From NCBI GenBank assembly GCA_947305865.1, contig CAMZEU010000006.1:1-32635 (forward strand): a stretch of 32,635 nt of DNA. Direction: 5' to 3'. This stretch comes from an uncultured Clostridia bacterium (GTDB taxonomy: Bacteria > Bacillota > Clostridia > Christensenellales > CAG-917). The notes beneath the pieces are model-generated. The model made no database searches, was not told where the DNA came from, and saw nothing but the letters and a program-made list of their open reading frames with translations. Below, one piece after another: positions 23,983 through 30,644 of the stretch; within the stretch, counting starts at the first letter, position 1, and each line of letters begins with the position of its first letter. Position numbers and translations under genes: made by a program.

Positions 23983-26697
23983 TTAGTCTACTATTTCCTC
24001 TTCTGAGTATGATTCAATGATGTCTCCAACTAAGATGTCTTCAAAGTTATGTAATTGAATACCACAATCCCAACCTTCTTTAATTTCTTTAACATCATCT
24101 TTGTTATGCTTTAAGGAATCAATCTTTGTATTAACAATGACTTCATCACCTCTTAATACTCTTGCCTTGCTGCCTCTTGTGATAATACCGTTAATAACGT
24201 GAGAACCTGCAATAACACCAGCACCAGTGATGTTGAAGATTTGTCTAACTTCTGCTTGGCCGTTAACAACTTCTCTATACTTAGGTGCAACCATTCCTTT
24301 AACTGCGAACTTAACATCATTAATTGCATCATAAATAACGTTGTAACTCTTAATTTCAACACCAATCTTAGCTGCAGCATTCTTTTGTGCTTCGGTAATA
24401 CCGAGGTTGAATCCAATAATGATTGCCTTTGCTGTGAGAGCGAGATTGATATCATTATCTGTTACAGCACCAACTGCTTTATGGATAATTTCAACTTTAA
24501 CTTCTTCGTTTCCAAGAGGTTGTAATGAATTACATACTGCTTCTACAGAACCTTGTACGTCTGCTTTTACAATAAGTTTCAAGCTCTTTAACTCACCTGC
24601 TTTAATCTTTGCAAAGATATCTGCAAGAGATGTTGCGCCAGCATTTTGTGCTTCTTTGTTGAGCTTATTCTTTCTTTCTTCGATTAAGTCTTTAGCGAAT
24701 TTATCATTTTGAACAACTATGATTTGGTCTCCAGCTGCTGGAACTTCAACAAAACCTGATACAGATACTGGAATACTTGGTCCAGCTGTCTTAACAGCTT
24801 TGTTCTTGTCGTCTGTCATGGATCTAATCTTTCCATAACATGTTCCTGCTACAACTACATCTCCAACCTTAAGAGTTCCTTTTTGTACAAGAATTGTAGC
24901 GATAGGACCTTTACCTTTATCCAATCTAGATTCAATAATAGTACCACTTGCTTTTCTGTCTGGGTTTGCTTCAAGATTCATATCTTCTGCAACGAGTGTA
25001 ACTGTTTCAAGTAATTCATCAATACCAAAACCAGTCTTAGCTGATACTCTAACTACTGGAACTTCGCCACCCCATTCAGCTGGTTGTACTTCGTGTTGAG
25101 CAAGTTGTTGTAATACTCTATCTGGATTTGCACCTGGTCTATCCATCTTATTAAGAGCAACAATCATTCTTACACCTGCATTCTTTGCATGGTTAATAGA
25201 TTCTATTGTTTGAGGCATTATACCGTCGTCTGCAGCTACAACAAGAATTGCTATATCTGTTACTTGGCTACCTCTTGCTCTCATTGCTGTGAATGCTTCG
25301 TGACCTGGAGTATCAATAAATGTAACGAGTTTGTCGTCTACTTTTACTGTGTAAGCACCAATTGCTTGTGTAATACCACCTGCTTCCTTGCTTGCTACGT
25401 TAGCTTTTCTAATGTAGTCTAACAATGAAGTCTTACCATGGTCTACGTGACCCATTACAGTGATGATTGGAGGACGTGGTTGAAGCTTATCTAATTCTTC
25501 AATATCATCATTCTCTTGTTGTGATGAAAGCACAGATTCTGTTGTTATCTCTGGCTTATATTCAATATTAATATTGAATTCTGTTGCAATTAATTGTGCT
25601 GTTTCAATATCTATATTGTCATTAATTGTCTTAATAATACCAAGCATGAATAACTTCTTAATGATTTCTGTTGCAGGAATACCTGTCTTAGAACAAAGAG
25701 TCTTCATTGGAACGATTTCAGTTGTAATTACGCAGCTTTGAGGAGTATTGTCTGCTTTTTGTGCAACTGATTCGGATTGGTGTTTAACCTTTCTTTGTCT
25801 TACGTATCCGTTTTCATCTTCGTCGTCATAGCCATCGTAGTTTCCACGATGTTTTGTATCTACAACATAACCTTTTCTAAGTTTTTCTTTTTCGGATTTA
25901 ACTGTCTTTTCATCTCCACTGAACTTATTCTTCTTACCCTTCTTTGTTTCTTCTATCTTTGGAGGATAATTTACTGGAGCAGCTGCTTGGCCAGGTCTTT
26001 GTGGTTGTTGTGGTCTTGGACCCTTATCTGTACCTTGACCTCTTTGTTGTCTCTTTCCATCATCCTTTCCAAATACTTTAGTAATTGTGGTAGCTGGTTT
26101 GGATTTGTCTGGCTTTTCTGGCTTTGGCTCTGGCTTTGGAGAGATAAATACTCTCTTGATGTCGCCATTTGCTGTTCTAACTGTAGCAATATTTCCTTCA
26201 ATAGAAATAACTTCGTCTTTTGGTTCTTCTTTTTTAGGCTCTTGTTTAGGTTCAGCTTTTTGTTTTTTACTTGGTTTTTCTGGCTCTTGAGTTGGCTCAG
26301 TTGTTTCAACTGTTTCTTCCTTCTTTTCTTCTACAACAGGAGCAGGAGCTGGTTCTTCGACCTTGGCTTCTTCAGCTGCCTTTGCTGCAGCTTCTTCCTC
26401 TTTGGCCTTTTGTGCAGCTTCTTGTTCAGCCTTTAATCTTGCTTCTTCAGCTGCCTTTGCCTCTGCTTCTTGCTTAGCCTTAAATTCTTCAATAGCCTTT
26501 TGATAAGCTTCTGCTTCAGCAGCTTGTTCAGCCTCTTTCTTAGCTATTAATTCAGCTTCTTTGGCATCATACTTATCTTTGATAACCTTAAGTTTATCCT
26601 TAGCTAGGCTAATTCTATCCATTAACTCCTCTAACTTTGTTAGAGTGTTTTGAATATCATTTGGTGAAAATTTATTATTGTTATTATTTTCTGCCAT
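23983..26697 (-). CDS. infB: Translation initiation factor IF-2
   Basis: IF2 is the GTPase that positions fMet-tRNA and joins the ribosomal subunits. The 904-residue protein has a long, highly charged N-terminus: an Ala/Glu/Lys-rich coiled coil (about 30-115), then a Pro/Glu/Lys-rich and Gln/Gly-rich disordered stretch to about 310. An IF2-N domain follows (about 325-380). The G domain (about 405-575) has GHVDHGKTS, GGITQAIGAY, DTPGHEAFTAMRARGS and NKMDRPG. Domains II, III and the C-terminal fMet-tRNA-binding domain complete it. A good AGGAG stands before the ATG. Shorter IF2 isoforms from internal starts are possible but I see no strong internal site. It follows ylxQ by 12 nt. Confidence 0.97.
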   Translation of the reverse strand: MAENNNNNKFSPNDIQNTLTKLEELMDRISLAKDKLKVIKDKYDAKEAELIAKKEAEQAAEAEAYQKAIEEFKAKQEAEAKAAEEARLKAEQEAAQKAKEEEAAAKAAEEAKVEEPAPAPVVEEKKEETVETTEPTQEPEKPSKKQKAEPKQEPKKEEPKDEVISIEGNIATVRTANGDIKRVFISPKPEPKPEKPDKSKPATTITKVFGKDDGKRQQRGQGTDKGPRPQQPQRPGQAAAPVNYPPKIEETKKGKKNKFSGDEKTVKSEKEKLRKGYVVDTKHRGNYDGYDDEDENGYVRQRKVKHQSESVAQKADNTPQSCVITTEIVPMKTLCSKTGIPATEIIKKLFMLGIIKTINDNIDIETAQLIATEFNINIEYKPEITTESVLSSQQENDDIEELDKLQPRPPIITVMGHVDHGKTSLLDYIRKANVASKEAGGITQAIGAYTVKVDDKLVTFIDTPGHEAFTAMRARGSQVTDIAILVVAADDGIMPQTIESINHAKNAGVRMIVALNKMDRPGANPDRVLQQLAQHEVQPAEWGGEVPVVRVSAKTGFGIDELLETVTLVAEDMNLEANPDRKASGTIIESRLDKGKGPIATILVQKGTLKVGDVVVAGTCYGKIRSMTDDKNKAVKTAGPSIPVSVSGFVEVPAAGDQIIVVQNDKFAKDLIEERKNKLNKEAQNAGATSLADIFAKIKAGELKSLKLIVKADVQGSVEAVCNSLQPLGNEEVKVEIIHKAVGAVTDNDINLALTAKAIIIGFNLGITEAQKNAAAKIGVEIKSYNVIYDAINDVKFAVKGMVAPKYREVVNGQAEVRQIFNITGAGVIAGSHVINGIITRGSKARVLRGDEVIVNTKIDSLKHNKDDVKEIKEGWDCGIQLHNFEDILVGDIIESYSEEEIVD

Positions 26698-26709: not shown

Positions 26710-26991
26710 TTAATTCTGTAAGTCTTCTTTAATTCCCTTTGCAAGATTTACATCTAGTATTGCAAGCGAATGAACATTTGGTCTGTGAGTTAAAGATGGT
26801 AAATCTTCGATTTCTATTACATCATTTGATTTAGCAAATCTTCTTACTCTTTCTTTGTACTTGTCTGATGAAGAACTATCTATAATAACTAATGCTTCCT
26901 TAGTTAATGTTTTAATTTGGTCTTCGCCAAAAACTATTTTTCTAGATTTAATGGCAAATCCTATTAAAGTTTCGATTTTTCTTCTATTCAT
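26710..26991 (-). CDS. ylxQ: YlxQ, L7Ae/L30e-family RNA-binding protein
   Basis: This small protein (93 residues) has the L7Ae/L30e/S12e fold. The N-terminal RKIETLIGFAIKSRKIVFGE matches the typical 'lgLarraGklv-G' opening, and ALVIIDSSSSDKYKERV is the central strand-helix. The tail LAILDVNLAKGIKEDL is the usual 'd-nfAk-i' end. Members bind kink-turn RNA. It is always found between rnpM (ylxR) and infB in this operon. Its start overlaps the end of rnpM by 8 nt. Confidence 0.9.
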   Translation of the reverse strand: MNRRKIETLIGFAIKSRKIVFGEDQIKTLTKEALVIIDSSSSDKYKERVRRFAKSNDVIEIEDLPSLTHRPNVHSLAILDVNLAKGIKEDLQN

Positions 26992-27244
26992 TTGTTATCT
27001 CTTTTATGACTATGTCATAAATATCTAGATTATTGTTTATTTTAAGAGCTCTATTAATAATGTTCTTCTTCTTTGCAATCTTTACACAATTCAAATCTTT
27101 GCAAATGTATACGCCTCTACCTTCCATCTTGAATTCTCTGTCTATTACAACAATTTCATCTTGTATTGTAAGACGGATTAATTCATTTTTATTTTTGTGG
27201 CATCTGCATGCACAACATTGTCTTGTAAAGGCTTGGTTCCTCAT
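26984..27244 (-). CDS. rnpM: RnpM (YlxR, DUF448) RNA-binding protein
   Basis: The 86-residue DUF448 protein has the family pattern: FTRQCCACRCHKNKNELIRL at the N-terminus with paired cysteines, the invariant GRGVYIC segment, and a basic KKKNIINRAL helix. In Bacillus, YlxR has been renamed RnpM because it binds and inhibits the RNase P RNA. The start is 9 nt after nusA. No close Shine-Dalgarno is visible (GGGAG lies about 14 nt upstream), so coupling to nusA translation is likely. It overlaps ylxQ. Confidence 0.9.
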   Translation of the reverse strand: MRNQAFTRQCCACRCHKNKNELIRLTIQDEIVVIDREFKMEGRGVYICKDLNCVKIAKKKNIINRALKINNNLDIYDIVIKEITNE

Positions 27245-28405: not shown

Positions 28406-28900
28406 CTAAAACTCAATGTACGGAAGTACCTTATTTATTTTTGTTTTATTTATTGTTATTTCTTTTTTATTTTTACCACCGATAATTGTTACATCATCAC
28501 TTGTATATGCTTTTAATTCTCCGTGGATTTTTTCTTTTTTGCCATTTTCTTCGTAGAAGATCTCAATTACTTCTCCAAGATTTCTTCTGTAGTCATCGTC
28601 ATCTACGATTGGTCTATCTAAACCTGGAGATGAGATATTGAGTTGATACTCTGATGGGAAGTCTGCCTCATACAAATCTAGTTCATCACTAACTGCATTA
28701 TGTAGTACTTCTAAGTCATCAATTTGTATTCCACCTTTCTTCCAAACAAAGATAGTTAATGATGGATGTTTGTATTCTTTGAAATATTTTATTTCAACTA
28801 CTTCATATCCGTTGGTTTCTGCTATTCTGCAAATAACCTCATTAACGCTTACTCTAACGTCTTCTCTAATTGGAAATTGTGTGCTATATGTTTCTTTCAT
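28406..28900 (-). CDS. rimP: Ribosome maturation factor RimP
   Basis: RimP binds free 30S subunits and is needed for their assembly. From the ATG at 28900 the product has 164 residues, a normal length. The N-terminal alpha/beta domain includes EVVEIKYFKEYKHPSLTIFV and the hallmark YQLNISSPGLDRP, followed by an SH3-like C-terminal domain (RRNLGEVIEIFYEE to the end). A longer in-frame start at 28954 would run through the leader hairpin and add 18 residues unlike RimP, so I reject it; AAAGGA lies 9 nt before the chosen ATG. It is the first gene after the internal operon promoter. Confidence 0.93.
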   Translation of the reverse strand: MKETYSTQFPIREDVRVSVNEVICRIAETNGYEVVEIKYFKEYKHPSLTIFVWKKGGIQIDDLEVLHNAVSDELDLYEADFPSEYQLNISSPGLDRPIVDDDDYRRNLGEVIEIFYEENGKKEKIHGELKAYTSDDVTIIGGKNKKEITINKTKINKVLPYIEF

Positions 28901-28909
28901 TTTTCTTTG

Positions 28910-28915
28910 TCCTTT
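28910..28915 (-). promoter_or_regulatory. Ribosome binding site that sets the rimP start at 28900
   Basis: AAAGGA lies 9 nt before the ATG on the minus strand, just after the interrupted U tract of the leader hairpin. If that hairpin terminated transcription, this site would be lost. Confidence 0.6.
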
Positions 28916-28920
28916 TTTTA

Positions 28921-28952
28921 TATAACAAGAGTGAGTCGTTTCCGGCTCACTC
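28921..28952 (-). promoter_or_regulatory. Leader hairpin before rimP-nusA, candidate NusA-dependent attenuator
   Basis: On the minus strand a 10-bp stem (28943-28952 with 28929-28938, nine Watson-Crick pairs and one G-U) closes a GAAA tetraloop. TTGTTATAT follows directly, a U tract broken by G and A residues. It lies about 20 nt after the predicted transcription start. A strong stem with a poor U tract is how NusA-dependent intrinsic terminators look in Bacillus subtilis, where nusA is reported to be autoregulated in its leader. It could also end transcripts coming from the polC-locus gene upstream. Confidence 0.55.
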
Positions 28953-28978
28953 AAGAATTACATATTCATGATGTGTGT

Positions 28979-29007
28979 ATTTTAATGTTTATTTTTAAAA
29001 TAAGCAA
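28979..29007 (-). promoter_or_regulatory. Sigma-A-type promoter for rimP-nusA-infB operon
   Basis: Read on the minus strand, TTGCTT (29007-29002) and TAAAAT (28984-28979) are separated by exactly 17 nt; the -10 matches 5 of 6 consensus bases and the -35 only 3 of 6. An almost pure A/T tract at 29012-29036, including the inverted repeat AATTATA/TATAATT, lies where an UP element would. The predicted start is near 28972, giving a leader of about 70 nt. Confidence 0.5.
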
Positions 29008-29036: not shown

Positions 29037-30644
29037 TTATCTTTTATCCATTTCGACAGCCAAAATCTTTAATACTTCAGCTGTTGCAAGGACGTCTGCA
29101 AGTGCTCTATGTGCATCATTATGTGAGATGTGATAGTCTGCAGATAATTCAGTTAATCTATATCCCTTTCTGTTAGGAAGTAATTCTTTAGCTTTTACGA
29201 TGGTGTCAAATGTTTCGTTGTTAAACTTATATGAATACTTTCTAGCAATATTTTCTACAAATGGAAAATCGAAAGAACCAATATTATGGCCTACTAATGT
29301 ATAGTCTTTACAGAACAATAAGAAGTCTGGCAATATCTTTGATATTGGTGGACAATATTGAACCATATCATTTGTAATATGTGTGATTTCACTAATTTGT
29401 GGTGGGATAGGTTTTGATGGCTTTACAAGTGTTTGGAAAGTTTCTGTAACTAAACCATTAACCATCTTGCATGCACCAATTTCTATAATTTCGTCTTTAG
29501 TTGTGTCTAATCCTGTAGTTTCTAAGTCAAAAATAACATAAGTTTTATCTTTTAACAGGCTTGGAACTTCAACATCTTGGTCATCTAATAATGATAAAGA
29601 TGCAACTGTAAATACTGGATCGTTATATGGTTGTGGAGATACAGTTTGATATTCAAGTGGTAAATCTTTTGTCTTTTTATACTTGATGGAAGAATAATCT
29701 ATATCACATCTTCCAATTGCATCTACCATAGCCTTAACCTTTCCCTTATTCATCATGTCATCTTGAACTTGGCCTTTAACAAGAACTTCATCTCCATCAT
29801 GAATTAGTGAGAAACAAATAATATCTTTCTCTTCTGGGAATATTACACAATTAATTCTTCCTGTTGTATCATTGATGTTAAACGAGACGAGTTTTTTCAT
29901 CTCTGGACCTGATTTGGGGTTGTTAGAATCATACTTTTTGTTCTTATACTCTTTAATTAAGAACTCTGAAACCTTGCCACAAAGAACACAATTTTGACCT
30001 GCTCTTGAGCTTGCATTTACGATATAAGTTGGCATTTCAGCAATGCCTTTTATACCTCTTTTTCCATATACCATGCTAAAGTTATTTACTGTGATTAAAC
30101 CAACATCATCACTTTGTTGAATAAGTCTTGGAGTATACTCGGATACTTTCATTCCTTTCTTTTCTGTAATATTAATGATAATGTTTTGTATAAAGTTCAT
30201 ATCTAAATAATCTTTGAATGGATCTAAGAATTGAATGCTGCTTACCATTAAATAAATAGGTGTATCAAATGTGAAATCAATAATAATATTTTGTTCATCT
30301 ACACTTATTTTAAGGTTATCATCGGATATTTCTTTAAGTAAAATTGAGTTGTTTGAATTTAAAAATTCAATTATTTTATTTTTTACAACTTTTTCATCTG
30401 CGAAAGCCTTAACATAAGAAACATTTACTTTTAGTCCATTAGTAACAATTTTAGATACAATAGACTCCACTTCTTGCTTTTGGTCTTCTGTGAAGTTCTT
30501 TATATCAATTGGTGAAATCATGAACTTAATTTCTAGTTCAGTATCACCTTCAGTTTTTCTTATATAATCAGCTGATTGGAATTTAATCATTGGGAATTTC
30601 CCATTAGCTAATCTTTCAAATTCTTCTACAAACTTAATACTCAT
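29037..30644 (-). CDS. PolC-locus protein: PolC-like N-terminus, OB fold and DEDDh exonuclease, no polymerase
   Basis: This 535-residue protein occupies the slot where Bacillota carry full-length polC (about 1,440 residues), between ispG and rimP. Residues 1-~190 resemble the PolC N-terminal region in layout. Residues ~215-313 look like an OB fold (FNINDTTGRINCVIF, DGDEVLVKGQVQDD) and contain one CxxC pair (C219, C222). After a linker without recognisable PHP sequence comes a complete DEDDh 3'-5' exonuclease (about 367-530). Its residues are D373 and E375 (FDLETTGL), D459 (GHNIGSFDF), H512 and D517 (AHRALADVLAT). Translation ends right after this domain; PHP, palm, fingers and thumb are missing and no fragments follow. 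The start overlaps the ispG stop (TAATG). A proofreading or repair exonuclease role is inferred. It is not a functional polymerase. Confidence 0.85.
   Translation of the reverse strand: MSIKFVEEFERLANGKFPMIKFQSADYIRKTEGDTELEIKFMISPIDIKNFTEDQKQEVESIVSKIVTNGLKVNVSYVKAFADEKVVKNKIIEFLNSNNSILLKEISDDNLKISVDEQNIIIDFTFDTPIYLMVSSIQFLDPFKDYLDMNFIQNIIINITEKKGMKVSEYTPRLIQQSDDVGLITVNNFSMVYGKRGIKGIAEMPTYIVNASSRAGQNCVLCGKVSEFLIKEYKNKKYDSNNPKSGPEMKKLVSFNINDTTGRINCVIFPEEKDIICFSLIHDGDEVLVKGQVQDDMMNKGKVKAMVDAIGRCDIDYSSIKYKKTKDLPLEYQTVSPQPYNDPVFTVASLSLLDDQDVEVPSLLKDKTYVIFDLETTGLDTTKDEIIEIGACKMVNGLVTETFQTLVKPSKPIPPQISEITHITNDMVQYCPPISKILPDFLLFCKDYTLVGHNIGSFDFPFVENIARKYSYKFNNETFDTIVKAKELLPNRKGYRLTELSADYHISHNDAHRALADVLATAEVLKILAVEMDKR

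Follow-up and report, generated by a model that had tools for sequence, protein, structure and literature searches.

A probable NusA-responsive attenuator of the rimP-leader type, with a changed stem, in an uncultured Clostridia lineage

The window analyzed here is a stretch of 32,635 nt (contig CAMZEU010000006.1, positions 1-32,635, assembly GCA_947305865.1) from an uncultured Clostridia bacterium (GTDB Bacteria; Bacillota; Clostridia; Christensenellales; CAG-917). On its minus strand, rimP and nusA open an operon that continues through ylxR and infB to rbfA, the last being recognized from its translation (cf. Table 1). At the position of ylxQ (L7Ae-like), between ylxR and infB, there is a 93-aa protein (26710-26991, minus strand), which matched no Pfam or NCBIfam model and, judged by its position, is perhaps a diverged YlxQ. 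A 535-aa protein (29037-30644, minus strand) occupies the classical polC position and has, of PolC, no more than the OB part and the DnaQ-like exonuclease part; a similar exonuclease gene is present upstream of rimP in much of the family. Since the assembly yielded a single polymerase III alpha domain, which belongs to a separate 1215-aa open frame, the polymerase part of PolC seems to have been lost in this organism. The rimP leader sits on the minus strand between the end of the exonuclease gene (29037) and the rimP ATG (28900).

Table 1. Genes and leader elements of the rimP-nusA locus, in window coordinates.
Feature	Position	Strand	Basis or remark
infB, operon continuation, rbfA after it	23983..26697	-	ORF translation, by eye; no domain scan
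ylxR, operon continuation	26984..27244	-	PF04296
nusA, 379 aa	27254..28393	-	NusA_N, KH_5; TIGR01953 above cut-off
rimP (ylxS), 164 aa	28406..28900	-	RimP_N + DUF150_C; ATG at 28900
rimP Shine-Dalgarno AAAGGA, not part of the hairpin	28910..28915	-	sequence
Interrupted U tract UUGUUAUAU, termination expected about here	28920..28928	-	sequence; interruption kept in family and phylum
P2, rimP-leader terminator-type hairpin GAGUGAG-C-CG-GAAA-CG-A-CUCACUC	28929..28952	-	sequence, folding, conservation, covariance model
P1, short hairpin GAAT-atgta-ATTC at the predicted transcript 5' end	28955..28967	-	family shuffle test
-10 element TAAAAT, 17-nt spacer	28979..28984	-	sequence; spacing to hairpin kept in family
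-35 element TTGCTT, rimP operon promoter	29002..29007	-	sequence; TTGCNN at the same place in most family leaders

An earlier note on this DNA had proposed a promoter with 17-nt spacing, followed about 20 nt later by a GAAA-capped hairpin of 10 bp, a broken U tract and the rimP ribosome binding site. The promoter was found on the minus strand as TTGCTT-17-TAAAAT (29007-28979). Its predicted start lies at about 28972, some 72 nt from the rimP ATG, and the hairpin does begin about 20 nt after it. Taken alone, the pair of elements is only a moderate match, and the promoter is credible mainly because relatives have it at a constant spacing to the hairpin: in 62% of family leaders, a simple scorer placed a -10 element 24 to 30 nt upstream of the hairpin, as compared with 15% of shuffles. 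The family form is TTGCNN-17-TANNNT, often with TGN ahead of the -10 element, and by eye it was seen in more leaders than the scorer's 62%, since the scorer sometimes picked another site.

The main hairpin, P2, has the DNA sequence GAGTGAGCCGGAAACGACTCACTC (28952-28929, minus strand), i.e. GAGTGAG-C-CG-GAAA-CG-A-CTCACTC. Its stem comprises 7 bp, a C.A mismatch and 2 further bp, closed by a GNRA-type GAAA loop. Hence, the GAAA cap and the position given in the earlier note stood, whereas the count of 10 bp had included the mismatch and is corrected to nine pairs. The leader folds at -19.9 kcal/mol, in comparison with -10.3 +/- 2.6 kcal/mol for dinucleotide shuffles (z -3.8; 1 of 200 shuffles as good). 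The hairpin alone folds at -12.1 kcal/mol, so that its strength is moderate rather than weak. In the 1.32-Mb assembly it is unique even when up to 3 mismatches are allowed. An extended lower stem in the window fold (UAUGUAAU/GUUAUAUA) was dropped, as inspection showed it to be absent from the other two members of the genus. No larger antiterminator or riboswitch-like element is visible in the window leader, where only the small P1 lies upstream of the hairpin. Directly behind the hairpin comes the broken tract TTGTTATAT (28928-28920), in which 6 of 9 positions are U, enough to count as a U stretch, and the ribosome binding site AAAGGA follows, as the earlier note had described. From the end of the hairpin to the rimP ATG there are 28 nt, which falls within the published range of 4-130 nt. 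The C.A mismatch of the genus hairpin counts against reading the element as an attenuator.

The hairpin was present at the same place in 35 of 35 family leaders with enough sequence (L005-L033 and L176-L181), including both other genomes of the genus; the sole exception in the family, L034, offers just 63 nt before its contig end. Within the family, the consensus reads GAGUGAGC-loop-GCUCACUC-UUUGUUUUA, with many different loop sequences. Outside the family, in the order, class and phylum, GAGUGGG...CCC(A/G)CUC was found at the same place in 76 of 87 leaders. The remaining 11 carry related or different hairpins (e.g. AAGUGGGC/GCCCACUU and GGGAGCGG/CCGCUCCC). The search pattern permitted G or A at the variable pair, and all its matches outside the family have G there; one leader that does not match it, L059, reads GAGUGAGCC/GGUUCGCUC. 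Family and outsiders thus differ at a single pair, where a compensated change has turned G-C into A-U; the family members L026-L028 show the expected G-U intermediate (GGGC...GCUC). In an alignment of 35 leaders from the family and outside it, this pair is A-U in 20, G-C in 12 and G-U in 3, 96.4% of cells are paired, and the covariation exceeds that of all 500 shuffles and of every slid version. These results supply the alignment of relatives that the earlier note had named as a check, and both the compensatory change and the poor U tract that it looked for were found; likewise, the stem is conserved, an absence of which would have spoken against the proposal.

Within the order but outside the family, a strong hairpin was detected in 40 of 42 leaders (4.8 expected from shuffles, maximum 9), and in about ten of these 40 the stem sequence is a different one. 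Six order-level leaders (L051, L182, L184, L186, L192 and L193) have a stem unlike GAGUGGG/CCCACUC and retain the hairpin. Since the stem sequence is replaced while the hairpin stays, it appears to be the structure that is kept. This bears on the idea that an operon-encoded protein (RimP, YlxR or NusA through its KH domains) recognizes the stem by sequence and acts on translation or mRNA stability, not on termination. Over most of the phylum GAGUGGG/CCCACUC is almost invariant, which exceeds what a plain terminator requires and makes a protein that recognizes the stem conceivable, and Naville and Gautheret have argued for a protein recognizing the rimP-leader motif (PMC2965389). However, in several lineages of the order the stem has been replaced with the hairpin kept (GGGAGCGG, GCGACUGC, GAGAACGG), the Shine-Dalgarno sequence lies outside the hairpin, and a U-rich tract stands behind it in nearly all leaders, so we consider a binding site of this kind improbable.

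The U tract was then compared position by position, counting from the last G-C pair. In the phylum leaders, U occupies positions 1-3 in 93-95% of cases, position 4 in 21%, position 5 in 17% and positions 6-9 in 70%, 38%, 88% and 87%, respectively; in the family leaders, the values for positions 1-9 are 93, 97, 66, 31, 90, 72, 97, 86 and 14%. Of the leaders starting with UUU, 17% in the phylum (n = 65) and 6% in the family (n = 17) have U at position 4, which is thus non-U in 83% and 94%, as opposed to 85% U (n = 13) and 87% U (n = 23), i.e. 13-15% non-U, in UUU-starting control terminators, which are small, mechanically defined sets of hairpins behind genes from the same groups. In one family genome (G039), the ordinary terminators found by the model end in at least six U, and the rimP leader tract is TTCTCATTAT. 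This comparative evidence suggests that the interruption may be a selected feature, a point that is open to testing. In the window's genus, ordinary terminators likewise have short or broken U runs; therefore, the window's broken tract alone is weak evidence for NusA dependence, and the case rests on the wider comparison. A NusA-dependent intrinsic terminator, as defined in B. subtilis, has a weak hairpin and/or an interrupted U tract, and the window's element would belong to this class by its tract. In NusG-dependent terminators, the non-template strand carries the pause motif TTNTTT at a set distance from the 3' end; in a comparison that covered the letters of the motif, the family tract TTTGTTTT includes TTGTTT, and the window has TTGTTA, one mismatch from the motif.

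A terminator of fixed efficiency would offer a simpler account, in which the hairpin keeps the output of the operon constantly low and stops read-through from the upstream exonuclease gene, with no feedback by NusA. It would fit the observations that no other G+C-containing hairpin is visible between 29037 and rimP and that terminators of the ordinary kind appear about as weak in this genus. Yet the hairpin is preceded by a promoter, which lies downstream of the exonuclease gene and, in most of the family, keeps a nearly constant distance to the hairpin; the hairpin therefore belongs to the rimP leader. As the interruption of the U tract is also kept across the phylum and NusA feedback has been reported for B. 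subtilis (review, PMC12288461), we regard a fixed terminator as rather unlikely.

The accessory hairpin P1 was found in many family members between the promoter and the main hairpin, directly ahead of the latter. It reads GAATA-tgt-TATTC in the genus relatives, and the window copy has 4 bp. Because of register shifts, column counts on the MAFFT alignment are weak for P1, and a shuffle test independent of register was used in their place: 16 of 27 distinct family leaders had a stem of no fewer than 5 bp, whereas shuffles gave 3.7, with a maximum of 9 in 500 rounds. The sequence of P1 varies (AGUAG/CUACU, AUAGUA/UACUAU, UAAGUAA/UUACUUA, GAAUA/UAUUC). Stabilization of the RNA 5' end or help to the main hairpin are the obvious candidates for its role. 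One might also suppose that the main hairpin serves solely to protect the mRNA from decay or to mark a processing site, since the hairpin is near the 5' end and many family members have P1 ahead of it. We find this highly improbable, as it leaves unexplained both the conserved U-rich tract and the termination observed in S. agalactiae (PMC4448216).

Profile searches were performed with two covariance models. R2, made from family leaders with the window's genus excluded, had its best match in the window's genome at 28917-28957 (24.1 bits, E 5e-4), and on 800 kb of control DNA it gave nothing below E 0.5. R1, built only from leaders outside the family, finds most family members and is too strict for the window, where it gave no match at E up to 10; the window's tie to the non-family leaders consequently runs through the family. 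Other model matches in family genomes showed no sign of a regulon; most of them were ordinary terminators located behind genes and ending in long runs of U. A single-sequence scan of named genomes matched only records of uncultured Clostridia or Christensenella-type bacteria, a Candidatus Onthoplasma and three Sphingobium. Rfam contains a rimP entry, namely the gammaproteobacterial rimP leader. Searches of Rfam with the window and the rimP-nusA loci of 38 relatives (among L003-L033 and L035-L120) yielded no match at the gathering score and chance matches only at E up to 10, although nearly all of the relatives' loci carry the motif, so a model of the Bacillota rimP-leader seems to be missing from this database.

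The element resembles a published one. Naville and Gautheret described the rimP-leader in 2010, calling it "the most ubiquitous transcription attenuator" and placing it at the top of the predicted attenuators; its stem is GGGc(...)gCCC, it lacks an antiterminator, and NusA was considered the strongest candidate for its regulator (PMC2965389). The window's element agrees with it in gene and place, in a terminator-type hairpin whose 5' arm is rich in G and whose 3' arm is rich in C, in the U stretch and in the distance to the gene (PMC2965389). It differs in having GAGC...ACUC in place of the GGGc(...)gCCC signature, a family-wide change, in the C.A mismatch above a 7-bp stem and the GAAA loop of the genus, and in the small upstream hairpin P1 of many family members. 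Since the GGG/CCC signature is absent but the compensated change links the two by descent, the element is, as judged from the alignments, a sequence variant of the rimP-leader and not a literal match. The B. subtilis ylxS(rimP)-nusA leader likewise has a terminator-type hairpin ahead of the NusA-encoding operon; it is about 180 nt long by its published description, in contrast to about 72 nt, from a predicted start, in the window. In S. agalactiae, RNA-seq revealed a short RNA ending 31 nt past the start of the rimP-nusA operon, at an intrinsic terminator, and its authors proposed NusA feedback (PMC4448216). This gbs0413-gbs0418 leader is like the window's in the intrinsic terminator close behind the rimP-nusA-infB start, although the former was seen by RNA-seq and the latter is predicted from sequence. 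The gammaproteobacterial leader shares the operon and the idea, but it has a tandem form with terminator and antiterminator (PMC2965389), and no antiterminator is visible in the window.

For B. subtilis, it is reported that NusA controls its own synthesis by stimulating termination in the leader of its operon (Mondal et al. 2016, as cited in a 2025 review, PMC12288461). Terminators whose hairpin is suboptimal or whose U tract is interrupted are stimulated by NusA and NusG in this species (PMC8060035). As the conserved stem with its compensatory change, the kept poor tract, the place close to the promoter and the operon itself fit the published rimP-leader, the B. subtilis autoregulation and the S. 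agalactiae termination, the NusA mechanism of the earlier note appears, by homology, to be the best supported. We think it likely that the window carries a promoter-proximal intrinsic-terminator attenuator of the Bacillota rimP-leader type, responsive to NusA and with a compensated stem change. Transcription would start about 20 nt upstream of the hairpin, and RNA polymerase would pause in the poor U tract, where NusA, possibly with NusG, would help the hairpin to close and release the polymerase, leaving a leader RNA about 50 nt long. An abundance of free NusA would lower the number of polymerases that enter rimP-nusA-ylxR-infB-rbfA, and a shortage would raise it. Termination in the leader in vivo and its stimulation by NusA are taken from relatives, and we infer them for the window's organism.

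The type of element is already known, and apart from a slightly changed stem this one is ordinary. Its modest novelty lies in this lineage's altered stem, in the stem replacements that recur within the order, in a U tract whose break is conserved when set against controls, and in P1. We put forward, tentatively and with some doubt, that selection keeps the hairpin and an interrupted U tract tuned for NusA-dependent termination, and not the GGG/CCC sequence; the order would then amount to a natural experiment, with several replacements of the stem sequence, a lasting hairpin and poor tract and, in some cases, an added P1. Rfam detected the rimP-leader in none of the Bacillota loci searched, and the present comparison extends the most widespread predicted bacterial attenuator to an uncultured lineage. 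The comparison also supplies evidence on two points open to testing. One is that the poor U tract is selected; the other is that the hairpin can persist when its well-known stem sequence is exchanged, and this argues for termination, and not sequence-specific binding, as the core function.
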